Positions 6,139 to 29,858 of a stretch of DNA of 64,000 nucleotides are shown one piece after another. The DNA comes from Arbacia lixula (lineage: Eukaryota; Echinodermata; Echinoidea; Arbacioida; Arbaciidae). The first letter of the stretch is position 1, and every line of letters starts with the position of its first letter. The DNA is taken from NCBI GenBank assembly GCA_963669155.1, contig OZ022594.1, forward strand, positions 3,233,750-3,297,749. The letters run 5' to 3'. Under the pieces are notes generated by a model, which was not told the DNA's origin, made no database searches, and saw only the letters and a list, made by a program, of their open reading frames with translations. The position numbers and the translations under genes are program-made.

Positions 6139-6300
6139 CTGTGAGGATTGAGCTTGATCCGCAAGCACTGTGTAGAAGTCGTCGTGCATCTCGGCGCCAC
6201 TCTTTATCCGTACCTCCCGAAGGGACTCTGAAGTACAAATGCAGTCAGCCACGTCACGTGACACGGTGCGCCCGCAGCGTCTCTTGAGGGTCAATGTTTT
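6139..6300 (-). CDS. NLR gene exon encoding leucine-rich-repeat-like sequence
   Basis: A 162-bp exon of 54 codons, open and flanked by a pyrimidine-rich acceptor ending CATAAG and a CAG/GTATGTAT donor. Both ends are phase 0, fitting the NACHT exon donor at 6964. The join makes CLNLKTLTLKRRC, which has the L-x-x-L-x-L spacing of a leucine-rich repeat. A second repeat-like stretch is SLREVRIKSG. LRRs form the C-terminal sensing or autoinhibitory part of NLRs. A TGA lies in frame just upstream of the acceptor, which fixes the exon edge. I found no convincing further LRR exon between here and position 1, so the last exons are either missed, lost or outside the window. Confidence 0.78.
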
Positions 6301-6692
6301 CTTATGAATTGAACAAGACGCACAAAGTCAAGACATCTGAATGGCTGCAATAATTAAGTGTACTGCGATAAACATGTCAAATGGAGGTTGGTATTCCATT
6401 GGGAGATTCCAGTTTTATATAAACATGTGCATATATCAGGATCTCATTAATGAATAAACCATATCGCCTTATCATAGTTTGATTTAGTCTTGCAACTAGT
6501 CACCATTATCGTTTTGATACAACTCTACTAAGGACACTGAAATTGCTTTAGTTATGAAATGTATATTTCTGACCAATATAAGTATGCCTATTGACATTTT
6601 ACATTATGACGGTGACATTGGTACATGGAAATGCTTTTGTGTGTAACTTTGGTTAGCGATGCAATTCTGTAATTGAACCTTGACCTGCGGTA

Positions 6693-6742
6693 AGAACACA
6701 CACACACACAGACACACACACACACACACACGCGCGCGCAAA
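6693..6742. repeat. (CA)n/(CG)n dinucleotide repeat
   Basis: CACACA run with one G interruption turning into CGCGCG, in the intron between the NACHT and LRR exons. Confidence 0.9.
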
Positions 6743-6964
6743 AGTTAAACGTTGCATGAATGTTTTCTCTTTCCCCTTTTTTTTGACCAGCCAGGACTCA
6801 TGTATTCAATAGCACATCATGCCCTAAGGGTTTATGGGGTCGATATGTCACAGGTACTTTCCGATAGGTTTCTCTCTCTAAAAAAGAAATTAACTGATGG
6901 GGAAAATAAGAAAAAGGAATATGAGAAGAGAAAAATTAATTCACATTCCGATTGCCCATCTCAC

Positions 6965-8523
6965 CAGGTTAAGGCATCCCACGATGTACAGGTAGCCGGA
7001 TACAGTGTGCGCCGCCATGCCAGTGATGTTTGCATCTATCGTCAGGTCTTTGATCTTGCCTACCGTGGTGTGCTTTACAGCTGCAACTGCTTTGGGGTCT
7101 TGACACTCGAACGCTAAGTCTACGATGAACATATCTGCATCCCCCTTCTTATCAAGCCGAGAGATGATGTCAAGACCAGCACCAATATCCAACGCAGATG
7201 TGAAGTATAGAAGCAATTTATACTCAGTGTGATTGTTAAGAAGCTGCTCGATCAACCCTTCGTATTCCGGACGGTTTGTTTGGTAGAGCGATGCTAAGTA
7301 CGACCCGGCCAGGTACTCCTGGAAGAGTTTGTGAGGGAACTGCACATAGCACTGTCCATGGCTGCCTGGCTTTCTGTGTCGTCTTTCTGGAATGTGCCTT
7401 TCACGAGATAGAACTCCTGTCCTGCAACCTACATCCAATGAACCTGGACTCTCCCTGAATTCTTCTTCCGGAAAGACGAGCTGGGTCTCTAGCAGGCCCT
7501 GGAGAGCGATCTTACCGATCGACTTGAAGAGGACAAGAATGGCTTCACGGGTTCGCTGAAGTGTCACATCGTCGTACGACTCGCAGTGTTTCACAATGTA
7601 GTGATCAATCAGGAAGTCGATCATCTCACGGAAAAGCTGCGAATAGGTCTTCAATTTGCGCATTGCAAGGCGTCTCTCCCCGTCATACTCTCTCCACATG
7701 ATGCAAAGCATAGCCGCGAAGATTGGGAAGGGAGACATGTTCTCTGCGATGACGTCATTATGTTGCATAAACTGAATGAGGTCAGTAGCTGAAGCTGTGT
7801 CATCAGCAAAGAACTTCGTGATGTAGAATGCTAGGTTCTCGGGAGTGAACCCTTCAACTGCGATGAATGCGTATGCTTTTCTTAGATCCTTGCGGCGTCG
7901 TATCTCATCTGCCCTCCAAGGGCGTGACGTCACGAGAACTGTAGTGGCCTCGAATTGGCGTCTGTGCATAATCCTAGCCATAGCTTTAGCACTCTCCAAG
8001 TCACCATCGTACTCGTCTAAGCCGTCCAACACAAGCAATGCGTCGTTCTCGTGGGTCAAGATGTACTTGTCTATCCGCCAAGCCTCTACGGGGTTGCTAT
8101 CAGGAAGGTAGCTCTTAATGACGTCACCCACGGTCTTACCCTTAGCATGGCGAAGTAGTACAACCAGAACCAGCTGGAACTGTTGAAAGCACCTGCCATT
8201 CAACCAGTCCCACGCTATCTTGGAACATAGCGTGGACTTTCCAGCTCCCCCTTCTCCCTCAAGCAATAGACGTTTAGGGTACGCACCGTTGACCTTGGTA
8301 TCCAGTAGCTTACTGTATTCTAGCGGTACTTTTTTGTTCGTGCTCTTCACTTCTTCTTCCAGTTTGAGATTGGTGAAAATGTCTTCAAACTGTACGAGGC
8401 TGCCAAAGTTCATAGGGTCAACTTGAACCTGACAAAGATTTAAGGCGTAGTACTCCTTTAGGTCCTTAGCTAACCGTTGAACATCCTCATCCGCCAGAGA
8501 AGAGATTGTGCCAGTATCAAGCC
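6965..8523 (-). CDS. NLR gene exon encoding the NACHT NTPase domain
   Basis: A 1,559-bp exon, acceptor TTTTCCGCAG (phase 1) and donor GTGAGA after an Asn-Leu codon pair (phase 0). The Walker A motif is GEGGAGKSTL at about residue 464 of the gene model. Walker B is LLVLDGLDEYDGD with the typical D-G-L-D-E. The sensor region reads VLVTSRPW, the winged-helix region has MSPFPIFAAMLC, and the exon ends in a helical region before LRRs. The full set of NACHT motifs identifies a STAND-class NTPase that would oligomerise when bound to ATP. No stop or frameshift is seen across 519 codons, so the exon looks intact and under constraint. The ATG seen at 8596 lies in the upstream intron and is not the start; splicing from the Death exon supplies the frame. 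Confidence 0.95.
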
Positions 8524-8599
8524 CTGCGGAAAATTGAGAACAAGGCGCATGGCTACTCTGTGGTCGTGGACCATTACAGGAAATATAAAACAACATTCT

Positions 8600-9695: not shown

Positions 9696-9701
9696 ATAAA
9701 G

Positions 9702-10475: not shown

Positions 10476-10738
10476 CTGTATCCAGACTTTTTGCAAGGTT
10501 AACTAAGTTAACCCGACGTAGAGCTTTGACCAGTGACGCCCGAGCAGAGTCCACCGGTACTCTCTTCAGCCAGTCAATGAGCATACGGTAGGTTGCCCCT
10601 TCGATGTTTTTGATGTCGTATTTATATCGACGAAGCTTTGCTTCCCTCACCCCCAATTCCAGGCCTACTTTCCTGTAATCGTCGGGGTCCATCAGTTCTG
10701 CGAGCTTGCACAATTCGAGGTCGGTGAGCTGGCCAGGT
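10476..10738 (-). CDS. NLR gene exon encoding a Death domain
   Basis: A 263-bp exon with acceptor ATTATACCAG and donor GTACAA. It enters in phase 2 and leaves in phase 1. It encodes 87 complete residues beginning PGQLTDLELCKLAELMDP. The six-helix Death-fold pattern is visible: an L-x-L-A first helix, DDYRKVGLELGV (the 'W-x-x-L-A-x-x-L-G' position), EAKLRRYKYD, a TYRMLIDWLKR helix, and ASLVKALRRVNLVNLAKSL at the end. Death domains bind other Death domains and are the signalling module of many echinoderm NLRs. The next exon in the same orientation is the NACHT exon, 1.95 kb downstream, with matching phase. A tRNA-like gene and a hairpin repeat lie in that intron. The open frame beyond the donor (to 10402) is intronic. 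Confidence 0.88.
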
Positions 10739-10759
10739 CTGGTATAATGTATTAAACAA

Positions 10760-12320
10760 GGGCAAATTATAAATAACAACAATTATTTAGCGGTACAAAC
10801 AACTTTCCCATATGACCAATATTCGTGTGTGTGTGTTTCAGGCCGGGGGGGGGGGGGGGGGGGGCGTTCGGATGGGTTTGCCTCTGGTATTAAAGCCAAT
10901 ATAACTTTGTAAAACCTTTGTATGCGTGCATGCATTTCCTCCCCCTCCCCCTAAAAAAAAACGAACCAAACACAAATGTTGACATTATTGAAGTCATTGA
11001 GTAGGATGTTTCAACCATGGACCCTGCTACGAAAACTAAACAAGGATATCTGGCGTATTGCCTACCTCTTTTAAAGCTGTGTATTACTGAGATCTTTTGC
11101 ATATATGAATGAAACTTCAGTTAGACAATAACTTGCTTCCGATAAATTTGTAAAAAAGAGGGACAGATTTATAGTATAACATAATATTGATAAGAAATCT
11201 ATTAATGTTTAAATGATATGAGGTTAGCTATTTGATGGATTCGAATTTCTTGTGACTGTTTCTAGATCTTTTCGTATTTATCTTAGATTTCTCCGTACAC
11301 GGCACCCCTCCTAGTAAACACTGAGATTTACTTTTTTTCCCGAAAATTTACTGAAGGTATTACGCTATGATATGTACCGATCGTGAGAACATAGTTACTC
11401 ATTCATTAAAATTATATAATAATTTCCTTTTCATGCCTTTGTCATGTTTGTGTTTCTAGAGAAAACGATCTCAGAGCTTCATCATAGTCCGTGTAATCGA
11501 ATCAGAGGTATACTTTCCACAACGTAAGATAATTCGGGTAAGATAATGTTGTTATGTTGATACCCTTTTCACAATCTACATAAATATAATTAGAAAAATA
11601 TAAAGTAATAATAACTGATGTTAAATGCATGAAACCAATGCACAGTTTGTTAGTTTTAATTGCATTCCACTCCACGTATTGCCTATAAATAAATACGCTT
11701 TTGTCGAAAACTATATGTTGCTTTTACTCAAAGGTCTAAATAAAGAATGAGAAGTTAACACAATCGCCGTTAAGTAATCTGAAAGATGAGTACTCGAAAC
11801 ATGTTATCCTAATGAATTGTCAGTCAACATTTTGTTTTTCATGATTCCTCCTTATCCATTCTGACTCTTGGCAGGAACAGATTCCAACTAAAAGAAAAAA
11901 ACTCCTTTGATACTCAATGACATCAAGCACATCCACATGAGAACTATGGTTGAATGTATTCGTCTGTGACATCACAGGCAGCGTTGCCCCTTAGACATAC
12001 ATAAAAAGCAGAAATAAAAAAAAATCTCATTGTCTATTTTTACACACGATTCCAATGATGTATCACTGTTATTTGTTTGCACATTTTTTTTATTAAATAC
12101 ACATTTATGGCAAAGAACTACATGTACCTTAGGCCCAGACTCTCACACACTCTATAGGTTTATCAATCACACTCATGTAGTAAAGCTGTAATCAAATGAG
12201 AAGTAATAAGAAATCTTAACAATGTGGAAATATTCACTATGTTGATGAAAGGAGACACCTATGTATTCCTGTCATACAGTGCTGAAATGATGTAGCTGGT
12301 ATTTCATATATATCAACATT
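10760..12320. other. Intron sequence with no gene seen
   Basis: AT-rich sequence upstream of the Death exon, with a GT run and 17 or more G at 10826-10864. Frames on both strands are short and featureless. The Penelope-like element begins at 12327. Confidence 0.5.
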
Positions 12321-12326
12321 GATTAA

Positions 12327-13930
12327 GTAATTCTTGACGCTACCACATACCATGAGAAGTTATCCGATTTACTAGAGTCTGGCCCGTACCGTGAGTTAAA
12401 GAAAGATCCCACAGATCGTCTGTGTCGTAAGCTTTCCAGCACTCTGCTGAACTTAAAGAAAGACAACACAATGGATGAACCAACCTACCGAAGGTTGGAA
12501 CTCACACAGAAGCAACCGCTGAGAATTTATGGGTTACCCAAGGTACACAAGCCCACAGTCCCACTCCGTCCCATCGTTTCATGCATAGGTTCGTTTGCGT
12601 ACAACCTCTCGGAGCATCTAGCAGAGATCCTTTCTCCGCTAACCGGTACCACAGAACACACGATCCACAATCCAAGTGTTTTTGCAGAGTTCATAGCAGA
12701 GCAAACCATTAGTCCACATGAAGGCATGGTGTCATTCGATGTAGTCTCCCTCTTCACCAACGTACCGATTGAGGGTGCTTGTAGTGCTGCCTTGCAGTGA
12801 GACAGCAACCTTTCTGCCCATACTACACTGTCTCCAGAACAGCTAACCAAACTCCTTGAGTTTGTTTTCAGATCCACATATTTTCTGTACAAGGGTTCAT
12901 ACTATGCACATACTGAAGGGGCGGCCATGGGCAGTCCAGTCTCGGCTGTCGTGGCCAACCTGTACATGGAAAGTTTTGAAGATGAAGCATTAGATGCATG
13001 CCCTCTCTCTTGCATTCCCCGGGTTTGGAAGAGATACGTAGATGATACGTTCATCATTGTCTCTAGTTCAGAAACCGACAACCTGCTCAAACACATGAAT
13101 GGCCGCCACCCATCCATTCAGTTTACGTCGGAGGTTGAGTGTGAAGGGAAGATAGCATTCTTAGACACGATGGTTCACAGGCACGATAACCATAGGCTCT
13201 CCACCTCATTCTACAGGAAGCCTACCCATATAGACCAGTACATTGCGTTCGACTTTTACCACCCCACATCGGTGAAGAGAAGGCTGGAGAAGTGTCTTTT
13301 TGACAGAGCATCACGCCTCGTGAAAAACCCACAACAACCAAGCAAAGATCGGATCCGTGTCCGCAATGCCCTGAGTCTCAACGGTTATCCATGCCGTTTT
13401 ATACATAACACCAAGAAGAAAGCGCTAGAACCGAAGGATCAGAAGGAATACAAGTCGTTCGTAGTCTTGCCTTACGTTGATGGAGTGTCCCCACAACTCA
13501 GGCGCCGCCTGGAAAGCCATGGCATCCTCCGACAACAACTTACACGCCCCAAAGATCCAATCCCTCAAAACAGACGGGACGGAATTGTGTACAATATCCC
13601 TTGCAAAGGGTGTGACCGTTCATACATCGGTGAAACTGCCCGACCGATATCTGAAAGAATCATTGAGCATAAGAGGGATGTCAGGCTCCGCCGGACTGAC
13701 AGCTCAGCAGTAGATGAACATGCCTGGGATAACCAGCACCAGCCAGACTGGGATGGGGTTCAGTGCATCTCCCAAGAAGGGCTCTGGTACACACGTATGG
13801 TAAAGGAAGCCATCAATATTCGTCTCAACCCAACGATTTCAATCGAGACAACGGGATCGATATCCCCGATTTGTGGATTCGTACGATTCGCCGCCATGAC
13901 ACTCCCCGACCACTGGTCGACACGCCATAG
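12327..13930 (+). pseudogene. Penelope-like retroelement ORF: reverse transcriptase plus GIY-YIG endonuclease, 5'-truncated and broken
   Basis: The frame opens after a TAA at 12324 and reads VILDATTYHEKLSDLL, internal RT-N sequence, so the 5' part is missing. RT motifs follow: GLPKVHKP, the SFDVVSLFTNVP motif A and AMGSPVSAVVANLYME, then the YVDDTF catalytic box near 13036. The C-terminal GIY-YIG endonuclease region has NIPCKGCDRSYIGETAR with the paired cysteines and Y-I-G, then HKRD and HAW. This RT/GIY-YIG order is diagnostic of Penelope-like elements, which copy themselves by target-primed transcription. Two lesions are visible: a TGA at 12798-12800, and a frame shift near 13840 after which the normal C-terminus continues in another frame to TAG at 13928-13930. 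Few lesions indicate a fairly recent copy. It is not an active gene as it stands. Confidence 0.9.
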
Positions 13931-13969
13931 TAGCTCGTTGTTAGTTTGAAGCTGGACATTGTTACCCCC

Positions 13970-13977
13970 TGTTACAC
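13970..13977. repeat. Target-site duplication TGTTACAC, left copy
   Basis: Identical to 18480-18487 and directly adjacent to the first CCACAAATG unit of the palindrome. It supports transposition rather than local inversion as the origin. Confidence 0.8.
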
Positions 13978-16900
13978 CCACAAATGTAATAATCGCCCAC
14001 AAATGTAATAACGCCCACAAATGTAATAACACTTTACCCACAAATGTAATACTTTCACCCACAAATGTAATAATGCACTTTACCCACAAATGTAATATTT
14101 TTGAACCACCCACAAATGTAATAATCACTTTACCCACAAATGTAATAATTTTTAGGGGATATTTTGTCCAATTTCTTCAAAACTGAAACCCTGTACTGAT
14201 GCATCGGTAAAGCGCGCAGTCTTTATTCCAGACCCAATTATAGGCCCGATCACCTTCTCTCTGTGGAATAACGTGAGAGTGGAGCCTAGTCTTTCCTCCA
14301 GACCCGATTATTTCAAAAATAAGAACGTAGTCTTTTTTTCCAGACCCACTTATTTCATTTTTGGAATCTTCAAAGCCAAGGCCCGATCGTCTTATTTTTG
14401 TGGAATAACATGAGAATGGAGCCTAGTCTCTCCTCCAGACCCGATAATAAAAAAAGCGTAGTCTCTTTCCAGACCCAATTTTTTCATTTTTTGAATCTTC
14501 TAAGCCAAGGCCTGATCATCTTATTCCTGAGGGATAACCTGAGAATCGAGTCTAGTCTTTCCTCTAAACCCGATTATTTTAAAAAAATGAGAGCCTAGGC
14601 TTTTCTCAACCCGTTTCATTCATTTTTTTAAATCTTCAAAACGAAGGCCCCATCATCTCACTCCTGTAGAATAACATGAAAATTGAGTCTAGTCTTTCCT
14701 CCAGACCTGGTTATTTCAAAAGTAAGAATGTAGTCTTTTCTCAAGACCCAATTATTTCATTTTTTCAATTCTTCAAAATCAAGACCCCATTATATTTTTC
14801 TTGTGGAATAACATGGTAATCGAGCCTAGTCTTTCCTCCAGACCCGAGTAGTTCAAAAATAAGAGTATAGTTTTTTCCAGACCCAATTATTTCGTTTTTT
14901 TTAAATCTGCAAAACTAAGGCCCTATCATCTTATTCTTGTGGAATAGCATGAGAATCTTTCCTCCAGACCCAGTTAGCTTAAAAGTTAGAGCGTAGTCTT
15001 TTCTGCAGACCCAATTAATTAACTTTCTAAATCTTCAAAACCAAGGCCCCATCATCTCACTCCTGTGGAAAAATATGAGAATTGATTATAGTCTTTCCTC
15101 CAGACCCGGTTATTTTAAAAGTAAGAGCGTAGTCTTTTCTGCAGACCCCATTAATTAACTTTCTAAATCTTCAAAACCAACACCCCTTTATCTTATTCCT
15201 GTGAAATAACATGCGAGTTTCTAGTCTTTCCTCCAGACCCGGTTATTTTAAGAAAAAAAAACAAATAAAATAAACTTGAAAACTAAGATCCCACCATCTT
15301 CCAAACTAAGACCCTGTAATAATTCAATGGTTTAGAGCGTAGTCTTTCCGCCATACCTGTTCAATTAAAAAATACGTTCATAAAATATATAAGACCCTCC
15401 CAGCAAACATAAAAACGTTCTTTTTTTTAGGTCCTGTACGTCTTCGTCGTAAATGATTTTTGGGACTTTATACCGTTTTTTTAGAACATTTAAAAACGTT
15501 TTTAAACTTTACAAACTTAAACCTTTTGTACCTAGCGTTTACAGAACGTTTTATATACGTCCAGTTCAATAAGTCAACTAATATCAAATACATAAATAAA
15601 TAAATAAATCACTATATTTATGTCATTATTTAAATGTCAGTATTAAGATGTAATTTTGACGTCAATGTTACAATCTTAATGTAATGTGATTACATGACCA
15701 AAACATCTGCACTTGTTGTATGACCATAATATGACGTAATGTTTGCGTAAATACGATGTCTTTAAAGACCAACTACTCCTAATCCCATCCTATCTCAGTC
15801 TAATCGTAAGCTTATAACCTGAATTTATACCGGCAGTTGTTTACATTCACTCAAGAAATCGATGTTCACCCAACTGGCACAGTATGTTACTTGAAAACCT
15901 ATCTGATGTTCTTGAATATACATGCATGCATTAGGCGTCTTGAATTGTGTCATATTTTTGAACATTTGAATAGATAACCGGCATATAACTAGAAAGAAGG
16001 AATATTTAAGCATACATTCCAATAAACGTTTTGAAATTTAGACATTAAAAACATAAATGCCACCTAATTGAGTGCAATATTTTGTAGAGCATATTGCCGT
16101 AGTACCAGTGAGGGTGTTAAAATACGATAGGAGCAGGATAGGGTAAGAAATGATTAGGATAGGTAAGTATAGGATTAGGGTATGTGTGCGTATATGTATG
16201 CATGTGTGCGTATGTATGCATATATGCACGTTTCTTTTTTGTTAGCTGGGCTATTATCTCATTCCTGTTTTTTCTTTTTCCTTTTCAATTACTTTTCAAG
16301 TACTTTGAGCATGTACATAAGGTGGATTTAGTGCATTCTAAGTACTCATCAGTGCCATCATCATTTCTTGGCGATGCATGGCATCGCTTAACATTGTTAC
16401 ATATGTGGAACAACACGTCGCAAATAAATGATTGTTCGGTGGTCACACGAACTGACGAATCAGTCCAAATGGTCATATAACACAGACAGGAGGAACCGAT
16501 GTGATGGATCGTTGATCATGGACGGATTTTATTTTTAATCATGGAAATATTCTATCGCCCACAAATATCCTGGATTTCAATGGTCGTCGAAAAAAGAAGA
16601 AATCGAATTATAGTGACCATAAAACATTATTACAATTGTCGTTGAAATCATTACATGTGTGGGTAAAGTGTTATTACATTTGTGGGCGTTATTACATTTG
16701 TGGGTGTACGAGACACCCTCAAATGTAATAACTCCCACAAATGTAAGAACACTTTACCCACAAATGCAATAGTTTCAACCACAAACGTAGCAACGCCCTT
16801 TACCAACAAAGGTAATGATTTTGAATCGCCCAAATTTTATCCAATTACTTTGTTTCTATACGACCATTGAATTAGACCATTAGAATATAGGCATAGACGA

Positions 16901-18479
16901 TTGAAAGAAAAGTCGACAGTCAACGTACCATCGAATCGGTCCCACCTCTGTGCGTTATATACAAGTATATATATGTACTATTTTGACTGATTCGTCAGTT
17001 TGTGTGACCGCCGACCACTGAGACGTGTTGTATCCAAATATGTAACAATGTAAAGCGATGCCATGCATTGCCAAGAAAAGATGACGATAATGATGACCAT
17101 TTATAATGAGCTATATACACACATTATGTACATGCTCAAAGTGCTTGACTTTTTGAGTTGTATTTTTTTATTAAAAAAACGGAATTAGTTGATAGGATCT
17201 TAGTTTTGAAGATTTTTTTTTAAACTTCAATTACGAGGAAAGACTACGCTCTAAACATTTGATTTATCACAGTCAGGGTCTTAGTTTGGAAGATGTTGAC
17301 ATTATTCCACAGGAATAAGATGATGATGGGCTTATTTTTTAAGGTTTCAAAAATGAAATAAATGGGTCTGGAGAAAAGACTACGCACTTATTTGTGAAAT
17401 AACAGGGTTTGAAGGAAAGACTACTAGGCTCGATCCTCATGTTATTCCATGAGAATCTGATGATGTGGTCTGAATTTGTAAGGTTCAATAATATAAATAA
17501 TTACCGGGTCTGGGGGAAAGACTAGAAACTCTCACGTTATTCCACAGGAATAAGATGAAGAGGTGTTGGTTTTGAAGATTTAGAAAGTTAATTAATTGGG
17601 TCTGCAGAAAAGACTACGCTCTTACTTTTAAAATAACCGGGTCTGGAGGAAAGACTATAATCAATTCTCATATTTTTCCACAGGAATAAGACGATGGGGC
17701 CTTGGTTTTGAAAATTTAGAAAGTTAATGAATTGGGTCTGCAGAAAAGACTACGCTCTAACTTTTAAACTAACTAGGTCTGGAGGAAAGACTAGAAACGA
17801 TTCTTATCTTATTCCACAGGAATAAGATGATGGGGCCTTAGTTTTGAAGATTTAGAAAATTGATTAAATGGGTCTGCAGAAAAGACTACGCTCTTAATTT
17901 TGAAATAATCGGGTTATTTCATAAGAATAAGATGACGGGGTCTTGATTTTGAAGAATTGAAAAAATGAAATGATTGGGTCTGGAGAAAAGACTACACTCT
18001 TGCTTTTGAAATGACCAGGTCTGGAGGAAAGACTAGGCTCGATTACCATGTTATTCCACAAGAAAAATATAATGGGGCCTTGGTTTTGAACATTTGAAAA
18101 AATTAAATAATTGCATCTGGAGAAAAGACTACGCTCTCAATTTTGAAATAATCGGGTGTGGAGGAAAGACTAGATTCCATTCTCACGTTATTCCACAGAG
18201 AGAAGGTGATCGGGCCTATAATTGGGTCTGGAATAAAGACTGCGCGCTATACCGATGCATCAGTACAGGGTTTCAGTTTTGAAGAAATTGGACAAAATAT
18301 CCCCTAAAAATTATTACATTTGTGGGTAAAGTGATTATTACATTTGTGGGTGGTTCAAAATTATTACATTTGTGGGTGAAATGATTACATTTGTGGGTAA
18401 AGTGTTATTACATTTGTGGGCGTTATTACATTTGTGGGTAAAGTGTTATTACATTTGTGGGCGTTATTACATTTGTGGG
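13978..18479. mobile_element. Giant palindromic foldback element (TU-like), 4.5 kb, inserted in the Penelope-like element
   Basis: The two halves are inverted copies around about 16711. Outer domains (13978-14150 and 18305-18479) are tandem copies of a 16-20-bp unit around CCCACAAATGTAATAA. Inner domains (14180-15395 and 17157-18290) are head-to-tail copies of a unit of roughly 140 bp containing CTAGTCTTTCCTCCAGACCC. The innermost arms (16298-16708 and 16714-17155) end with the outer-type repeat again, flanking a 5-base centre. The left arm has about 900 bp with no partner on the right. The element is flanked by the 8-bp repeat TGTTACAC. Terminal inverted repeats with a short-tandem-repeat outer domain and a distinct inner domain are the hallmark of sea urchin TU foldback transposons. 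No transposase is encoded, so movement would need a trans-acting enzyme. Confidence 0.88.
15398..16297. mobile_element. Left-arm-only segment, about 900 bp, probable insertion in the foldback element
   Basis: The right arm has no equivalent of this stretch. Its start carries AAC/GTT-rich sequence (CAGCAAACATAAAAACGTTC, with further AACGTT-type motifs to 15555) resembling a dispersed invertebrate repeat. The rest is AT-rich, with GTATGTATGCAT and TAGGATTAGGGTA runs near 16150-16210. No open frame of note. Its exact edges are uncertain by some tens of bases. Confidence 0.5.
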
Positions 18480-18767: not shown

Positions 18768-18799
18768 TCTTTCGATTTCGTTTACCATACATTGCGAGA

Positions 18800-20930
18800 C
18801 AAACGATCATCACTAGCTTATTATCCGCAATGAGTAACATATTTAGCATTATATATCAACATTATTTCACGTTTGAATAAAATACACGTGTGAATATCGC
18901 GTACATGTTATATACTTAGTCGTTAGAGGGCAACATTTTATCTTGAGTGCGCGGCTTTAGACACGGCCTAATTTGGTCACTTGAGAACTGTTTAGGTAGC
19001 GCGTCCAGGTGGGGACACTACACGCAAAAACACTGTGCGAAGAGATGGAATCGAGATACGACCGTCGGGCGGGCGTCCTTTTAAAGATTGAGTTTTCTGC
19101 GGAACGATCGGCGCCCACACATGTCTGTAATTCCGTCTTGAACCGAGGATTTTAAAACGAATGGATATCCATACCTTTAAACAAGGTTTGATTCCGCCTA
19201 TTAATATTCATGACTAGCAGCTGCTTTAAAAAATATGATGAATACGCAATTGCGTCACGTCCACCTGGATTTTATAATAGGTCATACACATTCCTATACA
19301 TGCATACATTTCAGCTTTCGCTGCTGGACTTGAAATTTTGTCATGAAGTGCTTGTCATGTAGTTAATGAGAACAGGCGAACACGAAGTTGGATCCTTTTT
19401 GAGATGAAAATACTACCTTTGGCGCAGTTGGACACGTTTTTCATGTTACTTGTCTGAAAGGAAAATTTCTTAATATAACGTTTCCAGCAATTTTTTTTAA
19501 TATAGAATATGATGCGGAAGAGTGTGAAATCAAGACTTTTAGAGCCGTTTTGCCACATTGTAACAATTTTCCTCGATTGATTTTTATAGATGCATCGTAG
19601 GTATTAGATATCATAACTGCGCAAGCATATGGGATGAGGATATTTCCCCAAATTCTTCTGCGCATCCGATTTTGTTGATACATCAAAACCAGGCAAAAAT
19701 CATCCAGAGAATCGGCGGCATTGAACATCAAAGAGAAAATCTTGTGTGACTAGAAGGAGGGTACAATGAATATGCATTAATTAGACGGTTGATGGTACTC
19801 AATGTGCATAAACATCCTTGCCTAAACACAGTCCGCGTCAACGTAGAGAGCATGGAGAGTGCGCGGGCATACAAAATTTACCACTGTAAGCAAAAAAACA
19901 AAAACAAAACAACAACCAACAACAACATGAAATGAGATGGGTATCTGTGCGAGAAGCTTACTATGCCCCCCCCCCGTCTTTTCCCATTTTTCTTCAATGC
20001 CTGATCTACTTTGCTCTATTGATGTTGCATATGGAATATATTGATTTTTTTCTACAGAGTGAGTAAAGAATGTCTTTAATCTAAATATTAAAGATTAAAG
20101 ATCTAAATGTTTTTAAAGTTGTCTTAATCCGGTACGATTTTCATTTGGATCTTTGCATGCATGACTGGACAACAGGCTGAAGAAGACTGCAAAATCCCAT
20201 TTGCCGAGGAGCTGGGTGAAGGATACAACACATTGTTCAACAATTTATGATGTATGTGTACAGAGCGACACATACACAAAATGCAGAGGAACCGTACATC
20301 TAATTCTAGTACTACTCAAAGAGGGCTCAACATTTATAACTTTTGTGTAACCATTTGAAGGGAAGTCCACCAAGACCCCCCCCCCCCCATCCCCCAGATT
20401 TTTGATATAAATTGTCACTGTAAACCTACAGCAACAACTTTTCTTTTCATTGTTCTTGTACCTTCGTTTATGAGAAAGCACATTGGATCAAGTTACTTAA
20501 TAATAATGATGGTGATGATGATGAATAAGACGATGATTATAGTGATAATGATGGTGATGGTGATGGTGTTAATTAATATGTTATGGGAAAAATTCTAAGG
20601 TAATTGCCTAATTAAGATTGAGTAATCTTGATAAAAACTCAATGTCAAACAGAAATTGGGAAATGTTCTTACTGCATTATGAGACAATGTGTATTATGCG
20701 GGTATGTGTGTGTATGTGTGTGTGTGTGCGTGCGTGAGAGAGAGAGAGAGAGAGAGACACCAAACAGTCTTGTTTGGTTCATACGTCATATTCTATAGCC
20801 GTTCCGAACCAGTGTGGAAACACAATAATAACTTGCACATTTCATTCACAGTTCAAAGTCATTAATTGACTCAGAAACAGTATAATAAACATATAATACT
20901 TTTATACTAAAGTGTATCTATAATATATTT
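18800..20930. other. Intron sequence with one dispersed repeat and simple repeats
   Basis: Apart from the 19150-19365 repeat there are GATGATG-type runs (20500-20572) and a (GT)n(GA)n run (20700-20757). A 29-codon open stretch at 20161-20250 ends AEELGEGYNTLFNNL and stops, resembling a last exon, but I cannot assign it. The minus-strand frame at 19731-19441 has no recognisable domain. Confidence 0.45.
19150..19365. repeat. Dispersed repeat, also at 37115-37340
   Basis: Both stretches share AACAAGGTTTGAT, TTAATATTCATGACTAGCA, ATTTTATAATAGGTCATAC and ATACATGCATACATTTCAGC in order, at about 85 percent identity over 215 bp. The element type is unknown. Confidence 0.8.
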
Positions 20931-21069
20931 GTAATTGTATCCCTTCTATGAATATTCATGAGTATTCTGGGAACGTGATTGGTCGATTGATGATCGCAGA
21001 CTACAAAATAATTTGACTATATCTGCCTCAGCTCTGGATATTTTTCACTATTTTTTCATGGGGAAGACT

Positions 21070-21233
21070 GCGCATGCTCTATTTACTATTTTCTTCCTTG
21101 GCACTACTGCGCATGCTCACTACCTGGTAACAAAATTTGTTTCGACTGCGCGCGAGCAGCGCAGACGACCCGCCGCGCACTGCACTGTACTGTACTGTGC
21201 CGCACTCAGCTCACAGTGAGATTGTAAACAAAC
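21070..21233 (+). promoter_or_regulatory. Promoter-like region of the recombinase gene with two NRF-1-like sites
   Basis: CTGCGCATGCTC occurs twice (about 21068-21079 and 21107-21118) in a similar surrounding sequence, each containing the GCGCATGC palindrome bound by NRF-1-type factors. A GC-rich stretch (CGCGCGAGCAGCGCAG) and an ACTGT run follow up to the start codon. No TATA box is evident at a convincing distance. This local GC rise is unusual in the AT-rich neighbourhood and suggests a CpG-type promoter. Confidence 0.5.
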
Positions 21234-22612
21234 ATGGCGGCCTCCAGTGACCGAGTGCGGTTTGATCTGCTGCAAGGGGAAAACATTGATGACTTTATAG
21301 CATCAATCGACAGTTCTAACACGAAGAAAGCGATCAAATTCGGTGTAGACGTTTTTCGAGAATATTGCCGAGTGACTGACGTCAAATTTGAGGAACTTTC
21401 AAATCAAGATTTGGACGATGTTTTGGCAAGATTCTACGTTGCTGTAAAAAATAAACGAGGAGAGGATTACTCGGGGAAAACTATGTCGTCAATCAGATTT
21501 GGATCGCAACGACATTTCATTGCAACCAGGGATGTAGACATTGTCAAAAGTGGTGAGTTCAGCCGTTCAACTCGTGCTTTCAAAGCTAAACTTTCAAAGC
21601 TAAAATCAGTCGGTAAAGGAGAGGTGAAACATTATCCTCCAATTAGTGATGACGATCTTAACAAAATCAATGAACATTTGGACTTGTCAGAGCCAAAGGG
21701 CCTCCAGCGCAAAGCATTTGTGGCATGTATGCTACAATTCGCAAATCGTGGCATGGAGAATTTGCGTACATGAAAAAGACTGACCTCATTCTACATAATG
21801 AGAACTCAGAGTCAGAGTACTTCACACTACGAGACAAAGCCACCAAAAACCATGCTTCAGATAGCCGTAAGAGTCAGGGTGGAGAAATGCACGCCAATGG
21901 CCATGGTGATGGAACATGTCCAGTCACAGTTGTGAAAGAATACCTGAGTAAACTCCATCCTGACTGCGCATTCCTGTGGCAACGCCCAAAACAGAAACCT
22001 GTAGCTGGGAAAACAGAGTGGTATGACAAAGCACCGTTAGGTATCCACACATTGGAGGTGATGATGAAAACCATCAGTAAGGAAGTAAATCTCAGTCAAA
22101 GCTACACAAATCACTCACTACGAGCTACCAGTATCACACGTCTCGATCATGCTGGTTTCACGTCCAGAGATATTATGACTGTCTCTGGCCACAGGTCAGA
22201 AAACTCTATCAAGCACTACGTGCGAACCAGTGATGAACATAAGATTGCTATGTCCAAGGCAATCTCAGCAAGAGCATCATCAACGACAACATCATCTGCA
22301 GAAGTTGATGCCAGAGATCTTCCGTCGACCTCAAATGGAGCTCAAAATATAGATGAGCCAGCGGCATCTGATACTGTGAGTGGCATGTCTACTAGAGATA
22401 CAGCTGACAAGCCAGTCTCATCCGTTGATGCTGGAATATTGGATGATGGTGACGGTCTTACAGACAGCCAACTGGAAAGGTTTATGTCATCTATTCCAAG
22501 TACGGTGCCCCTTGAAAACATCACAAACCAGAATCTTACCTTGGTCCAAAAGATCGCTCGACCTCAGTTCCATTTCCACTCGGGATGTGTGGTCCACATT
22601 TACAATAAGTAA
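21234..22612 (+). pseudogene. Crypton-type tyrosine recombinase gene, one frameshift
   Basis: The first frame (179 codons from ATG at 21234) gives MAASSDRVRFDLLQG and a helical core-binding domain. It ends in FANRGMENLR, which holds the first catalytic arginine, at TGA 21771-21773. The second frame continues at once with YMKKTDLILH and runs to TAA at 22612, giving the rest of the catalytic domain: NHSLRATS (H-x-x-R), SGHRSENS and HYVRTS (the nucleophile tyrosine). A Ser/Thr-rich tail ends in HFHSGCVVHIY. Loss of one base near 21768-21770 explains the break. The order and spacing match Crypton/DUF3504-like recombinases, from which host proteins of the ZMYM and QRICH1 kinds descend. A sequencing error, or a gene that uses a small intron or frameshift, are alternatives. 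The ATG lies in a good context (ACAAACATGGCG). Confidence 0.82.
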
Positions 22613-22619
22613 CTGAACA

Positions 22620-22985
22620 CCGAATATTGTAAATATGTTCAGAGTTGCAGTTTATTTACTGTTCATGCATTACTGTTGGACTTTAGCAGTTACATGCAGA
22701 TCTACATGTGCATATTTCCAGAGTTTGCTGACTTTCCTTGCAAAATTTTCGCCGTGTAAGTTTTCATTGGAACTATAAATTTTCGCCGTGTATACAATCA
22801 ACAAAAGATTATTGAACTATCTAGACAAGGGGAAAGACAGTTTGAACCAGCTAGACAATGGGAGAGACAGTTTCAGATTCACCTTGTTTGCTTCATTGAG
22901 GTTAACCCATCAAATGGCTTGCACACAGGCTTAAATGAGGTGAGTCAAACATTTGTTTTTCATGTTCCTTTTTTGTTATTGTTTT
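22620..22985. other. No gene seen downstream of the recombinase
   Basis: Contains short duplicated phrases (ATTTTCGCCGTGTA at 22745 and 22781; GACAGTTT with CTAGACAA at 22821 and 22851). This may be the 3' UTR of the recombinase gene. Confidence 0.45.
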
Positions 22986-22989
22986 TACA

Positions 22990-23195
22990 AAAGGGATATA
23001 AAACAAATATACCAAGCTTTGAGTTCGAAAGTATAGTGGAAATTATCGATCTTCGGAGGGACTGGCTTAAGTTACTATTTTTTCCTCGGGGGCTTCGCCG
23101 CTTGGATAAAATAGTACTATGCCAGTCCCTCCTCAGATAGATAATTTCCACTATACAATCTCACAGCTTGGTATATTCGTATACTGTACCTTTAT
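22990..23195. repeat. Foldback (MITE-like) repeat with about 80-bp arms
   Basis: TATAGTGGAAATTATC at 23029 and its complement ending at 23154 anchor inverted arms that extend outward through ATATACCAAGCT. The loop is CCTCGGGGGCTTCGCCGC. The arms differ at several positions, so the repeat is moderately old. No duplication could be defined at the edges. Confidence 0.7.
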
Positions 23196-23199
23196 AAGC

Positions 23200-26100
23200 G
23201 CCTCACTCTTGTTGACCTTTAGAATAGCGCAACGCACTGAGTAGTGCAGAATGAATGTCTTAAATGGGTTATTGATGGGATACTGACGGCATTACATATT
23301 ATGTTTAATATAATTACTTCTCAAATTGTGTAGTCACTGTTAACTCTATCCAAATTGTATTATCTGGACACCACACACGCATGTGTAACACCTCTTTCGG
23401 TCCCGTATGGACAGAGTAATCTGATTTTGCATGATGTATAATAACTAGGTATTCATTTTATATTCTAACCTCTAAGGATTAGATATTTCATACTAGATAC
23501 ACAATTATTATTTGTACAAACAATTGATTTGGCATGATTATGGTTATGAATCACTTTTCACTCGTGTGTATTGTACCTTGTGATGTTTTTTGTGAATCAT
23601 CATTTCCCTGCAGGTGACAAAATTTATTTCGCTTTAACCCCCTGTCCTGGGTTCTATGTAACTTCTTTATGTGTATATGTTGTTTTGTGTTGAATGAAAT
23701 AAAGATGAATGAATAACAAATACACGATTTCACACTTTGTGGTATTCTTCACCCAGCCACTTGGCGCAGGTAAGATGTTGCAGTCTCCTTAAGATTTACC
23801 GGCTTTCTGTCATGCATGCAAGGATCTGAATAACGTTAGTACGGAAATATTAATTGAAGGATCGTTAATGGATGTTAATACTTTAAACAAGACAACTTTT
23901 AGGATATGGGACAATTTTTACCCACGCTGTATCGTGTAATATGTGTACTTTGAACGTCATCACCATTGTGTCATGACTATTGAGAGCAGGCGTTCATCCA
24001 TGTCACCTCTTCGCATACGGATTGGATGCAGACGCCCAACCATCGTTGATACGGTTATGCTAGTCCCAGGGTCTACCGCTGAAGTGCTTTATAGCAGCAC
24101 AATGTATCATGCCACGCATACTAAATTAGTGATCATGTGACGACAGAATGCTAAGATACTGAAAAGCCTGTAAAACCGAACATATTGAGAAGCTTTCGCT
24201 AGCGTGACGTGGCCCCTGGTTCGATTGTTTCGTGTGCAAATTGGCTTTTGCCCATTGATGCGCCAGACCGAATACATCCCTGGCTGCAATTTGTTTTGGT
24301 CTTACTTGTAAAAGCAAATACTCCATGTGCGCATGCGCGTTGACTTTCCTCAGGAAATCCACGCATGAACGTAGATCATACACGATGGGTTAGTAGTCTT
24401 CAAGCACAGACACTGATTTAACAGTTCGAAGAAAGTAGCTTGTTTACGCCTTCAAGTTGAGCAGTGTACCATGGCGTTTTGTGTAGTTATATTACGTACT
24501 TTGTAGATGGCCACCATGGCCTCAGCTCGGCTCACAGTCTGAATCATGAAACTTCACATAATCGAATACAAAGCACTTTTGCGGCAATGGTCAAAACGGG
24601 CAACTTTCTTCGAACTTTAAAATTAGAGTCTGAGTTTAAAGACTACTATTATATTATTTACGTTCACAGTGAACATATGCGTACATTTCCTTTGGAAGTA
24701 TTTGCTGTTACAAGTACGAACAAAAAAATCGCTCCCGGCCCGGCTGGAGGACGCAGCCTCGTAGCCAGCCAATCAGCCAATAGCATTGAACGTACACAAG
24801 CGCTGACGTCACACCGCTCTGCCGGTTCCACGATGAACGTTTTTAGTACGTAGACCTCGCTCTGCTCACCCCACAAATTCATTCGCCTGAACTAATATGT
24901 AATCTAATTCAGTGTGCGTTCCGTGGCTAGAGGTGGATGAGCTTTCCGCGCTGTCCGCCTACTCAACAGCCGTGAAAGTCTAAAAAAGGCGGTAAGATTC
25001 CACCTCATTTACGATTAAAACGGCAAAAACGACACACACTGGTGTAACATGAAAAGGCCAATCGCGATTGGATACTAGCGATTTCGAACTTCATATTCAA
25101 AGAGTACAGCGGCTAGTGCCGTCGGTCAGCATTTAGATACGTCTGTAAACCAGCTGGAAAACGATTTTCAGACATACAGTCAGGAGGAATAATGCCTGTG
25201 CGTATGTATGTATGCAATAGTGTGTTTAGAGGCAATAATGGGTAATAAATAATCTCAAGAGACCCCTTAAAACACTGTAACATCCTATTATCTTATTACC
25301 GGTGACTCCAAAAAAGTAGGATACATTCCATTGAATTTTTCAAAGTAAAGCCTCTAAAATACGACTTAATGGTGTTTATTGCCCATTGCTAGGGAAAAGG
25401 AAGCATCTAGCACCCGATTGTTGTACTTTCTAATGTTTTGATTATAAAAAATCAATTTGTTTTGTTAACTTGATGCGAGATTATCTTACATTATGTAGAC
25501 CGTAGTTTCCATGTCTTGTTAATGTTCTCCGTTTTTCTGGTTTATTAGTCGACACCGACCTGAAACATTTGTTTTGTTTTGTATATGTTTCTTGTATTAT
25601 TTATATCACTGGCGTGTATATTTTGATACGAATGAACTCCGTATTAATGTGGTTAATTGGGCAACCTCTCCTCCTTTCTCCTCCCCATCTCTTCCCATTT
25701 TTCCTTGTATTTTCTTAATATTATTTTTTGTATAAGTGTTGGTACGGGTTATATATAAAACAAGCAAACATTGCTATTAGTGTATGTTATATTAATTGTT
25801 ATCTTATTTGCATTTGTTTTGTTCTTTTGATAAGAAAGGTGTGGCAAACCTTCAAGCTGTAAGCTTATACCTCTGTAAGTTCCACTGTGTACAGGTATAT
25901 GTGTATCTTAAAACTTTGTACGTATCTTCAATAGCTTGTTATATTTTGTATGTATACTTTTATGTCATTGTTTGTATCACATTGTTTATTATTGGTGAAC
26001 TATGCAGGATTGAATAAAAAAATATATTCAGCGTTTAGTCTTTTTTCTCGTTAAGAAAATCTAGCAGCATCTAACACCATTTTAAATATTCAATGGGACC

Positions 26101-28580
26101 ACAGTGTAATGTTGCAAGGGGAAAGGAGACCTTAATAATCGTTTATAACACATTTTATTTTATTTCTTCCTAATCATAACTAAATTTATGAAATGTAGAA
26201 ACGTGCTATTTAGGGTTGCTATTAATCCAATAAGCACAGCTAACAAGGCTGTAAGTGTTCAATGGGACTTCATTATCACCCGGGTTCTGCGTTTAGTGGC
26301 ATTTCGTTTATGGTTAGGTACACCGAACAAGCATACCTAAGATGATTACAGGTAATTCCCATGTGTGGACCACGAAATTCAGAATCTCACGCCTGTAACG
26401 TGATCAGTCCATGGTCTATACATGTACCTTGAAATGAGTACGGCTGTCTCATTGCCGCTACTGTCACAGCTGACTGATTCCACGTCGCCACGGTCTTCCC
26501 GCCATGCATGTCGTGTAACGAAAGTTTACTCTTAAATCTGACCAGCGCACTGCCCAGGTCTACTACCGGCTACACTAGCCATTTTTGTTGGCGATGCGCA
26601 ACATTCTTGTTAGTTTGAAAATTCGTTACATACTATTCCGTTTGTTTCAATTCGCAGAGGCGCAATAACGGTATTTTTACGTTAAAATGTGCAGCTCAAA
26701 ATATTAAGTTATGAAAGAAGAAAGGTATATGCAACATAAAACACCTTAAAAGAAAAATGATGAACACAACAGTCACTTTCAGTGGATAGACCTTTTCATT
26801 TTAACGTGAGTTTTGTCAGGTTATTAAAGATAAAGTGTGGTATATATTACTATTCGTAACACAGATATTTCTTCTCAGATTATTGAAGATAAATGATCAT
26901 GTAGACATATTTGAGATGAGGTGTATGCATGAATTAATTTCATTCAAAACCGCGAATGTATAACTTACATTTGTACCATAAGACTTTTTATTAGTGCACT
27001 CCCATTGAAGGCATACATGAATGCCCCATACTTATCTATCATATCCCATTATTGTGAGTCCGAAGTCCTGGATGATTTTTGCAACGAATGAACGTGTTGC
27101 ACATACAATGCTCAGAGGTTCTCAGAATATTTACCTGAAAGATATATGAGCAGTTATATGATGAAGTACCTACAATGCAATCATGGCAGCGTCATCAAGC
27201 AATATTTATCCATGAATTTATATTCCATGATGCAAACCGAAAGTACACATTTTGGGAAATATGATAAATTATCCTTTCAGATATACAACGTGTAAACCGT
27301 GAAGTCTCGCTTACATATTAGTCTTTGTCGTCTCGAACAGTAGTAAAATTCGTTTTCGCTTGTCCTGAAATGAAAACATTACAAGCAAGACATAATAAAA
27401 CCGCCTGGTCAACAACGACATGAAAATATATGCTTCTTTTAGATTCAACTGTTGTATTGTATCACTTACTTAGGCATGTTCTCAACATGAAAGCCATCTT
27501 TTTAATCAGCCTTCATTCAACCTGTACCATCTTCGTATTGATAGCAAAATGACGATCAGCGCAATGCACTTTGATACGAGAATAAGATGCACATTGAACT
27601 TATCTGCAGCACAGCCCTCACCTTGATCTTAACCAAATCATCATATAAACAGTGAACATGTCTTTATGTTTCATTATAAGTTGGGATGTCATGATTGGTA
27701 CACTCCGCGGCATGAGCAATTCAGTCCCCGTGTTGTGAAAGGCACAAGTGTTCGACATTACAGTACGCGTAGTGAAGTGGTCAATGTGTTTTGGTATTCT
27801 TTCTTTTAAAATATAGGTAATATATTCATTACAGTATATATATGCTAACCTCTGCTTCAATATCTTTAGTTTCATGTGTTATCTAGACATCACTTTTCGC
27901 ATTTTTCGCCCACTCACATACACACACAATTTCACAGACATATACACATACGTACACACACACACAAACACACATCTACGAACAGATATCCACTTGATAC
28001 TGGTACCTGAATGTTTATAATGAATCTTCCTCCTTCTGCAATTTATCAATAGTTACATGAATGTTAATAGTAAGCGTACCACTATTTGATTAGTTTGCTC
28101 TGATGTATGTAATGCAGTATTGAGTTTCACTGTATATGCCACCACGCTCTGTGAGAATCTTCCGCGTTTCGTTACGAATTCTAATCTTCTATCGGGTTAA
28201 AGAGGGCACATCTGCAGTAGCATATATATTAACCATTTGTGTGCAACGTGAGTCCTTTGTACAAATTCCACAGAGCAGAAGTGTATCTGGCACACAAAGG
28301 GTTATTTTTTAACTGGTTGCATATTATGATAGTGGGTTCATAATATAAACAACAATTCCGAGTTCAGCTGTCAATAGAAAACTGTAGCGTGTGTAACGGA
28401 TTGCACGACAGTGGGTACTAAGCTTTACAATGCTTTAGGGAAGACGTTAACAATTTACAGTAAAGAAACGCCATATCGTCATCACGACCATAACTTGATT
28501 CACCAACTGAAATATATCCAAGTAAACATAGTAGACAAGAAATGTATCTCCACATGAAAGCCATAGTAAGGGCTACTAAT
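23200..28580. other. Long stretch without a supported gene; non-LTR-like 3' end near 23560-23720
   Basis: The sequence at 23560-23720 ends in GAATGAAATAAAGATGAATGAATAA, the look of a non-LTR retrotransposon 3' tail with no coding body. At 24325-24345 GTGCGCATGCGCGTTG contains the full GCGCATGCGC NRF-1 palindrome, beside a local GC rise (24700-24990), but no gene is tied to it. The remainder to 28580 is AT-rich. A 50-bp spliceable stretch on the minus strand (27365-27316) was considered as an NLR exon, but its phase does not fit the Death exon. Confidence 0.45.
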
Positions 28581-28586
28581 TCTCAC

Positions 28587-28750
28587 CGTTGATCAGGACC
28601 ATTCGGACCGGGGTTCCTTTCTACGTCCCCAGCCTGTAGAAGAAGCTCTTCCTCGACGTGTGAGTTGTTCTCAATGATAGAAACATCATCCTTGCTCCAA
28701 GTCCGCTGTGCTTTACAGCTGGGCGATAAAACGATGGTTGTCGGTGTAAC
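28587..28750 (-). CDS. NLR gene exon carrying a 2A-like ribosome-skipping peptide
   Basis: A 164-bp exon with acceptor TTCTTCCAG and donor GTGAGA. It enters in phase 0, matching the 29154 exon, and leaves in phase 2, matching the Death exon at 10738. It encodes 54 residues ending in ELLLQAGDVERNPGP followed by NGPDQ. The D-V-E-x-N-P-G-P signature with leucines before it is the defining 2A consensus. In 2A peptides the ribosome fails to link the final Gly and Pro, releases the upstream chain and continues. The Gly-Pro boundary would be after residue 280 of the model, leaving a Death-NACHT-LRR protein that starts with Pro. Sea urchin NLRs and some echinoderm non-LTR retrotransposons are known to carry such peptides. 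A retrotransposon origin is less likely here because clean splice sites flank the exon and no endonuclease/RT follows. Confidence 0.85.
28604..28645 (-). promoter_or_regulatory. 2A translational-recoding motif LLLQAGDVERNPGP
   Basis: The codons for the core motif lie within the 164-bp exon. All invariant 2A positions are present (D, E, N, P, G, P; here D-V-E-R-N-P-G-P), preceded by three leucines. The skipping point is the Gly-Pro pair encoded at 28609-28604. Efficiency cannot be judged from sequence. The upstream residues are more acidic and less hydrophobic than in 2A peptides that double as signal sequences, so a secretory role is not supported here. Confidence 0.8.
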
Positions 28751-29050
28751 CTGGAAGAAACATGATTACATGCATATCAAGTAATTACACTGTTTTGGAT
28801 GCTGGGATGTATACATTGAAGTTCTTCAAAATATTATATATGGAACTAGATTAAATAGTACGTTCACGTTTGTAACGTACCTTAATTCTTTATTCATTGA
28901 ATTGCAGGATTTATCAGTCTAATGAAATAACATATCACTTCTCGATGGAGCTGCTAATAATGTAGGGACATGTCGTATTGCAAATATTTTTTATATCAAC
29001 AAATCATATTCGATATGTCAATATTTGATATAATTTATAGTAGAAGGCAT

Positions 29051-29120
29051 TTGTCTTTAAAAAAAAAACATTTGTAGAACTAGCATTTGTAGAACTAGCA
29101 TTTGTAGAAGAAAACATTTG
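29051..29120. repeat. Short tandem repeat of CATTTGTAGAACTAG
   Basis: Three head-to-tail 16-bp copies with a fourth diverged, just inside the intron after the leader exon donor. Confidence 0.85.
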
Positions 29121-29153
29121 AAGAAAAATCAAATTAAATGAATGAACTCTTAC

Positions 29154-29858
29154 CAATGCCGCTTGAAGACTTCCAACCAGCTCAAGCGAAGTCTCATGCA
29201 CATCAGATCCAATGGAGGTGTCCATCCCAGCTTTGCAGTTAGGACTTTTGGTTGAAGTATTAGAACAATGCTGCTCGCTGTCGCTATCAGTACTCGATCC
29301 TGGAGTAGGTTTGTGATGGCTGTAATCACCGTCCGTTGCTGGCGGCATCGTGGACGATAGACTTTCATTTATCGGATGATGTCGCGAATCATCTGATTGG
29401 TTAGACAAATTCAGTGTGGAGTTTGGAGGTGATGCAAGAGAGGTCCCTCCTTCAATACAAGGAATGTCGCCGGAGTCAGCATCGTTCGCCTCGCGGTCAC
29501 TTTTTTCCTCGTTGCATGTGTCACTTGTTTTGGATGGGTCCGTAGAAGATCGAACTGTTTTTTCTTCTGCATCAGCGTCACCATGAGAGGATTTGTCGCG
29601 GTTTTTTGACGATGCTTGCTCAGCTGTTTGACTATTTGAGTCGCGGACTCCATTCAGCGTGTCACTTTCTTGATTGTTTTGTTCGTCATTGTTCTTACCA
29701 GCACCATTGCTCTTTTGCTTGAGCTTTTCTTCAATCAGGTCAATAAATTGTTGACAAAACCTGGTCTGCCGCTCAGTCCAGACTTCCTTCCTGGTCCGCT
29801 GGAGGAAGCAACCGATGCGGGCCCGCCACTCTCCAATCGAGACCGGCATGATGAGTGT
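29154..29858 (-). CDS. NLR gene exon with start codon: leader and acidic Ser/Asn-rich region
   Basis: The acceptor at 29860-29859 follows a pyrimidine-rich tract, so a 5' UTR exon probably lies upstream. The first ATG (29849-29847) is nine bases into the exon and opens 232 codons up to a GTAAGA donor at 29153, phase 0. The product begins MPVSIGEWRARIGCFLQ, a compact tryptophan/arginine-rich start, followed by a helical charged stretch (residues about 20-52). Then comes about 170 residues of low-complexity Ser/Asn/Asp/Glu/Thr sequence without hydrophobic segments. No known domain or signal peptide is recognised. If the 2A motif in the next exon works, this part is released as an independent polypeptide of about 280 residues. 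The open frame continues past the donor into intronic sequence and should not be annotated as coding. Confidence 0.72.

Follow-up and report, generated by a model that had tools for sequence, protein, structure and literature searches.

The 64,000-nucleotide (nt) stretch of the Arbacia lixula genome analysed here (C19:3233750-3297749 of a 607 Mb assembly, the window) carries on its minus strand the first half of a genuine animal immune-receptor gene. Its five exons encode, in order, a long leader, a StopGo/2A sequence, a Death domain, a NACHT domain and a first leucine-rich repeat (LRR)-type segment. Judged from exon order and splice phase, they very probably make up the 5' part of a single NOD-like receptor (NLR) gene whose 2A would split the product. 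The join between the 2A and Death exons spans 17.8 kb and is accepted because the rest of the genome repeats the leader-2A-Death order: for 39 of 40 leader matches the next features on that strand are a 2A and a Death match, in this order and with all pairs distinct, and with the strands flipped the count is 0.

Exon anatomy and the 2A border

Spliced from the ATG, the five exons give 2844 nt, or 948 codons, with no stop, and the phases at the four junctions agree (0/0, 2/2, 1/1 and 0/0; Table 1). Given this inferred splicing, the 2A sits in one frame between two coding parts, dividing the 948-codon frame into a first part of 280 residues and a second of at least 668. The sequence-only reading of this DNA had proposed five minus-strand exons of compatible phase, among them a 2A exon ending and a Death exon starting in phase 2, 17.8 kb apart. 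The stop-free frame bears out the first proposal, and conservation of both phases at other loci bears out the second.

The receptor part is recognisable from its domains. The Death exon scores 38.6 bits against PF00531 (cut-off 22.6) and the NACHT exon 76.9 bits against PF05729 (cut-off 26.7), and the solved-structure matches of the NACHT exon are headed by NAIP, NLRC4 and NLRP3, with expect values (E) down to 1.3e-10. The fifth exon is placed with a start at 6300, a coordinate absent from the earlier reading. In blastp comparisons with copies on C17 and C22, alignment runs from KTLTLKRRCGRTVSR onward, and the open frame of those copies begins exactly there. Of 44 genomic matches to this exon, its own included, 43 have a NACHT match 1.2-3.0 kb upstream on the same strand. 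A start at the tandem AGs at 6227/6225 was rejected: the stronger AG gives no coherent phase, and position 6300 corresponds to the residue where the open frame begins in the C17 and C22 relatives. This is the one LRR-like exon of the window; no further LRR exon was found there or in the next 8 kb, and Pfam returned no LRR match in the stretches scanned. Four related stretches occur within 8 kb of sequence in a C22 paralogue.

The 2A core, DVERNPGP, is the sole match to (D/G/C/N)(V/I)ExNPGP in the six frames of the window, this motif being defined in PMC12846837 (cited here, like PMC4981915 and PMC11512398, from excerpts). Upstream of it lies the L-rich EEELLLQAG, of which LLLQAG fits the L-rich (A/S/C)G StopGo class of the same source, by reading rather than by an activity score. 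At 17 2A loci, window included, a donor was sought as the first GT(A/G)A(A/G) after NPGP. Sixteen loci have one, always in phase 2: six on C19 and C12 (with the window), two on C22, three on C17 and five others (L031-L035). The seventeenth, L056, has no donor by this rule; by eye, GTAGG follows in phase 2. This recurrence suggests that the 2A exon and its phase-2 border together form an interchangeable module at the 5' end.

Splice sites were scored with general consensus matrices. Those of the leader, 2A and NACHT exons rank among the best 0.3-2.9% of the strand's GT or AG dinucleotides, and the Death donor in the top 8.2% of its kind. The Death acceptor has a low score but is conserved: all ten Death loci fetched and read, window included, open with AG/(A/G)CCT in phase 2.

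Table 1. Exons, 2A core and intronic features of the window.
Feature	Position	Strand	Details
Leader exon	29154..29858	-	Coding from ATG 29849, 232 codons; phase 0 donor GTAAGA
2A exon	28587..28750	-	164 nt; phase 0 acceptor, phase 2 donor (CG/gtgaga)
StopGo/2A core DVERNPGP	28604..28627	-	Six-frame motif search and genome pattern search
Probable 2A-Death intron	10739..28586	-	17.8 kb, with transposon-like sequence
DUF3504 and Phage_integrase open reading frames (ORFs) in 2A-Death intron	21228..22612	+	Pfam
Large inverted-repeat element in 2A-Death intron	14076..18383	.	Internal repeats of ~136 nt; arms 14076-14336 / 18123-18383, 96% complementary
Reverse-transcriptase-like ORFs in 2A-Death intron	12327..13949	+	RVT_1 E 1.7e-4, below cut-off; GIY-YIG E 0.13
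Death-domain exon	10476..10738	-	Phase 2 acceptor, phase 1 donor; Pfam PF00531 E 1.2e-9
NACHT exon	6965..8523	-	Walker A GEGGAGKST; phase 1 acceptor, phase 0 donor; Pfam PF05729 E 2.1e-21
First LRR-type exon	6139..6300	-	162 nt, phase 0/0; blastp to C17 and C22 copies

Recurrence of the gene order across the genome

All family counts come from this one genome, and those of large families are lower bounds. With the window's own copies included, there are 78 NACHT matches, 59 Death matches (E up to 0.1) and 40 leader matches (E up to 1); the leader search misses divergent copies, such as the WRxRI piece of L034, which is not in its list. Exact 2A motifs number 74, and the reversed pattern 0. With the window left out, the leader-2A-Death order stands at 38 of 39 leader matches, and none of the 40 has a stop within the matched stretch. 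Of the 39 genes, 23 are compact, with 443-556 nt between 2A and Death; the remaining 16 have 2.5-21.9 kb there. At 46 of the 74 2A motifs (0 of 74 with strands flipped), a NACHT match lies no more than 40 kb downstream in the same orientation, and leader, Death and NACHT are all present at 38 motifs. Taken from the Death side, a 2A lies within 40 kb upstream of 40 of the 44 Death matches with E up to 1.2e-9. Since tandem duplication accounts for many of the copies, they do not count as independent origins; the matches suggest a family of about 39-40 genes.

The exception to the order, at C12:1258638, has a 2A 2.1 kb on and then a Death match below the Pfam cut-off (E 0.0011). Beyond this, LRR-like stretches are seen by eye, and no NACHT match lies within 40 kb of the 2A. 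As read in L031 and L039 (C12:1258400-1268400), this relative has a 341-residue leader frame, a second WRxRI piece (two in L031), the 2A and the weak Death match, and ends in LRR-like stretches with no NACHT match. Three further 2A motifs on C12 (1057071, 1335419 and 1751094) lie in DNA nearly the same as that of L031/L039. Elsewhere, C17:17.99-20.99 Mb holds 29 leader matches in both orientations, with 2A, Death and NACHT matches behind them. Within this array, three leaders at 18.537-18.552 Mb are spaced at regular intervals of about 6 kb, and the NACHT matches of two of them are shortened. At C22:16504, leader, 2A, Death and LRR-type matches are present and no NACHT is listed between them, a possible loss or missed match.

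These comparisons bear directly on whether the leader and 2A exons are part of another gene that merely happens to lie upstream of the Death exon. The 17.8 kb gap with its transposon-like sequence and the weak Death acceptor would fit such a placement, and agreement of phase alone is a one-in-three event. Against this stand the 38 of 39 other leader copies with the same order and strand, the gaps as short as 443 nt and the empty flipped control; moreover, no Pfam family scores above cut-off on that strand within the gap. A separate gene is therefore highly improbable, and chance adjacency of leader-2A and Death is rejected on the order at 39 of 40 matches versus 0 flipped. The one-gene proposal of the sequence-only reading is supported by the same exon order and strand in the other copies together with the conserved phase-2 donor and acceptor.

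That reading had also seen nothing else of host origin on the strand between the 2A and Death exons, in agreement with Pfam, which yields a single sub-threshold match (E 0.034) on the minus frames there. The intron carries ORFs that we take to be Penelope-like, from the pairing of RVT_1 with GIY-YIG, an inverted-repeat element of 4.3 kb and presumably Crypton-like ORFs. The Death-NACHT intron contains a tRNA-like sequence (10041-10112, plus strand), called tRNA-SeC by ARAGORN in its bacterial setting; a tRNA-derived repeat seems likelier, as a guess.

The genome also contains 2A sequences outside NLRs, which raises a second alternative, that leader and 2A are the 5' end of a non-LTR (long terminal repeat) retrotransposon. 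No NACHT match lies within 40 kb downstream of 28 of the 74 2A motifs, and three of the four non-NLR 2A loci read (L055, L057 and L058) continue in frame into retrotransposon-like sequence. In 2A-bearing non-LTR retrotransposons a reverse transcriptase follows the 2A (not seen in L055, L057 and L058). By eye, over the first 420 residues, these three ORFs comprise a hydrophobic stretch, a 2A of the form SDVELNPGP or SDIETNPGP, a Cys-rich PHD-like part and an endonuclease-like part. They run on from the 2A without an intron, and no WRxRI occurs in the printed residues. The window, in contrast, has an intron between leader and 2A and a donor after NPGP, with an in-frame TGA right after that donor, and no Pfam endonuclease or reverse transcriptase lies downstream on that strand or in frame after the 2A. 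The intron split, the donor and the missing downstream enzymes speak strongly against a retrotransposon origin, to which we give even less weight than to a separate gene.

The fourth non-NLR locus, L056 (C22:9747600-9750400), is gene-like: a hydrophilic stretch precedes DVERNPGP and an apparent phase-2 donor, no NACHT match lies within 40 kb, and the sequence is not retrotransposon-like by eye. Its motif recurs at C22:9877701. Two further loci carry short hydrophobic N-terminal 2As of the sea-urchin kind, at C22:4209534 and C10:463158; these signal-type leaders, in L035 (C22:4209430-4211000) and L033 (C10:463050-464600), stand ahead of NACHT matches. At L034 (C12:8761660), a NACHT match is preceded by a 2A and a WRARIG piece.

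The leader and its possible role

Of the 40 leader exons, 23 were read, window included, and 19 were taken complete from ATG to donor by script. The complete exons span 228-237 codons, and their alignment shows no variation at E7, W8, A10, I12 and F15. Exact WRARI occurs in 17 of the 23 copies read, and in seven pieces picked for carrying the motif W8, R9, R11, I12 and F15 are invariant. Common to the leaders are a mostly basic N-terminal module of about 46 residues and a hydrophilic tail rich in S, T, N, D, E and K; the module persists in other subfamilies, where identity to the window leader over the matching part is just 27-44%. The genome search made here places the leader family only at loci of this kind. 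A PDB search with the leader gave 0 matches, and viral contigs searched for it gave seven pattern matches, none confirmed. AlphaFold, run without an alignment, places helices at residues 5-21, 26-49 and 216-231 with a mean pLDDT (predicted local distance difference test) of 51.6; block values reach 60-79 in the first 50 residues but are low in the remainder, and the tail is modelled as mostly unstructured.

A free acidic leader of about 280 residues without a signal peptide had been predicted. The window's product would have 280 residues and is acidic (isoelectric point, pI, 4.76; net charge -19), with a pI of 9.69 over residues 1-46. Acidity does not hold as a family trait: eleven C17 leaders range from acidic to basic (pI 5.46-9.34). 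The absence of a hydrophobic signal is confirmed, the maximum 15-residue Kyte-Doolittle value being 0.5 for the leader exon and 1.33 with the 2A exon, versus 2.24 and 3.28 for the two signal-type 2A leaders of the same genome. In 21 of the 23 leader exons the ATG is preceded by an AG at a distance of exactly 9 nt (in C17_2018 the start pattern was missed, yet the ATG is present). This regular spacing makes an upstream exon of non-coding 5' untranslated sequence likely, and a hidden signal peptide unlikely.

Ratios of nonsynonymous to synonymous change (dN/dS) were computed by the Nei-Gojobori method as ratios of pairwise means. For leader residues 1-46 the ratio is 0.49 among eight C19/C12/C22 copies and 0.37 among eleven C17 copies; for the tail it is 0.70 and 0.69. 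The 2A exon stands at 0.33 (8 copies) and the Death exon at 0.44 (7 copies, of which C22_703 is shorter); among the six C19/C12 copies alone, the values are 0.15 and 0.60. By these ratios, constraint is strongest on the 2A, acts on the leader N-terminus over longer times and is weak on the tail.

Comparative anatomy establishes the gene order, the phases and the stop-free matched leader stretches. From these we infer one spliced mRNA spanning the leader, 2A, Death, NACHT and LRR-type exons. During its translation, the ribosome would skip the Gly-Pro bond at NPG/P (LLLQAGDVERNPGP), releasing a 280-residue leader that keeps the 2A tail. The receptor would then begin PNGPDQR and reach the Death domain within about a dozen residues. 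The leader's role is most likely that of a partner protein made together with its own receptor in about equal amounts. The basic helical WRARIG module may bind a partner or direct localisation, the tail serving as a disordered spacer, and a minority of unskipped fusion would constitute a second receptor form carrying the module.

Several observations weigh against this interpretation. Two acceptors score weakly, the Death acceptor in the top 19.5% and the LRR acceptor at 6300 in the top 20%. No exact 2A lies within 40 kb of four of the 44 best Death matches, and for one of those four none was seen upstream in the 976 nt read. The variable core position, p15, is R, which is not among the residues favoured there in viral 2As (P, S, T, L, E, K, Q and A; x may be any; PMC12846837). 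Six of the 23 leader copies read depart from WRARI; C50_105 lacks a start Met, and C17_1839 (shortened) and C8_372 have no donor by rule. In a codon-usage test, the 2A frame is the best of six and the leader's own frame is the best of six overall, but leader codon bias is near zero, and over the first 60 codons one antisense frame reaches 0.154 versus 0.097 for its own. Finally, the leader tail is under weak constraint. When the six C19/C12 copies are taken alone, the leader gives a dN/dS of 0.75-0.78, a nearly neutral value based on few changes, and their leader-2A intron has a Jukes-Cantor distance of 0.079 versus a leader dS of 0.036-0.043.

Two other accounts of the leader can be set within the one-gene explanation and are weighed singly, not as shares of a whole. 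The leader could be a passive 5' spacer with no function in trans, the 2A and the frame being kept for a clean receptor N-terminus or a set level of expression. The tail ratio of about 0.7, the near-neutral leader of the recent C19/C12 copies, the greater constraint on the 2A exon and the largely unstructured model of the tail are consistent with this. It is nevertheless doubtful, given the N-terminal module kept between subfamilies of such low identity, the five invariant residues and the narrow range of lengths. Alternatively, the leader might matter only in the unskipped fusion, where a basic WRARIG helix would relocate a fraction of the receptor, as the endoplasmic reticulum (ER) signal does in signal-type 2A NLRs. 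Two such NLRs with the same phase-2 boundary exist in this genome, and dual targeting has precedent (PMC4981915); a leader of about 230 codons is, however, far longer than a targeting signal needs, and we rate this as unlikely to a like degree. Returning to the partner protein, its broader form is that each of some forty genes yields an NLR together with a member of an undescribed leader family as its dedicated partner, the 2A exon being an exchangeable 5' module joined elsewhere to an ER signal or to other leaders. We regard the case for and against that form as evenly balanced.

Comparison with known systems

StopGo skipping is said to be rare in host genes (PMC12846837). If the present interpretation is true, a large tandem family that couples a full-length leader protein to an immune receptor would strongly exemplify a host message that obligatorily yields two proteins. 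Three questions would then follow: does the leader regulate the receptor, does skipping shift during infection or when translation is stressed, and do receptors swap leaders through the phase-2 border?

The 2A resembles the L-rich class of viral StopGo/2A sequences (PMC12846837) in its core, D(V/I)ExNPGP, and in an L-rich upstream stretch ending in AG. Unlike these, it belongs to a host gene interrupted by introns, one of which, in phase 2, lies only a few codons from NPGP. With 2A-bearing non-LTR retrotransposons, represented in this genome by three look-alikes, it shares the core motif; they differ in an ORF uninterrupted past the 2A. The vertebrate receptors NAIP, NLRC4 and NLRP3 have alignable NACHT domains, whereas the N-terminus here is a Death domain in place of a CARD, BIR or PYD. 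We know of no 2A in those three.

The closest parallel is found among the NLRs of Strongylocentrotus purpuratus. A 2A is present in 85 of 241 (Roulston et al. 2016, PMC4981915), and the characterised SpNLR2A are 26-residue N-terminal sequences found in 14 of 87 entries, 12 of the 14 being predicted signal sequences (PMC4981915); the two fractions come from different NLR sets. Other 2A NLR cases are mentioned in passing (PMC12846837, PMC11512398), and the excerpts of the literature matches listed contain no description of a long leader ahead of a 2A NLR. Some of the remaining S. purpuratus 2A NLRs may be of the present long-leader kind, and 2A NLRs are already known there, so the long leader is a variant rather than something categorically new. 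Like SpNLR2A, the gene described here places a 2A-like sequence ahead of a Death-NACHT-LRR receptor. In SpNLR2A a short 2A with a hydrophobic signal lies at the extreme N-terminus; here the 2A ends at residue 280, on an exon of its own, and the leader exon before it has 232 codons, is not hydrophobic and carries the conserved WRARIG module. The two arrangements can thus be read as parallel, with a non-secretory module probably taking the place of the ER signal.

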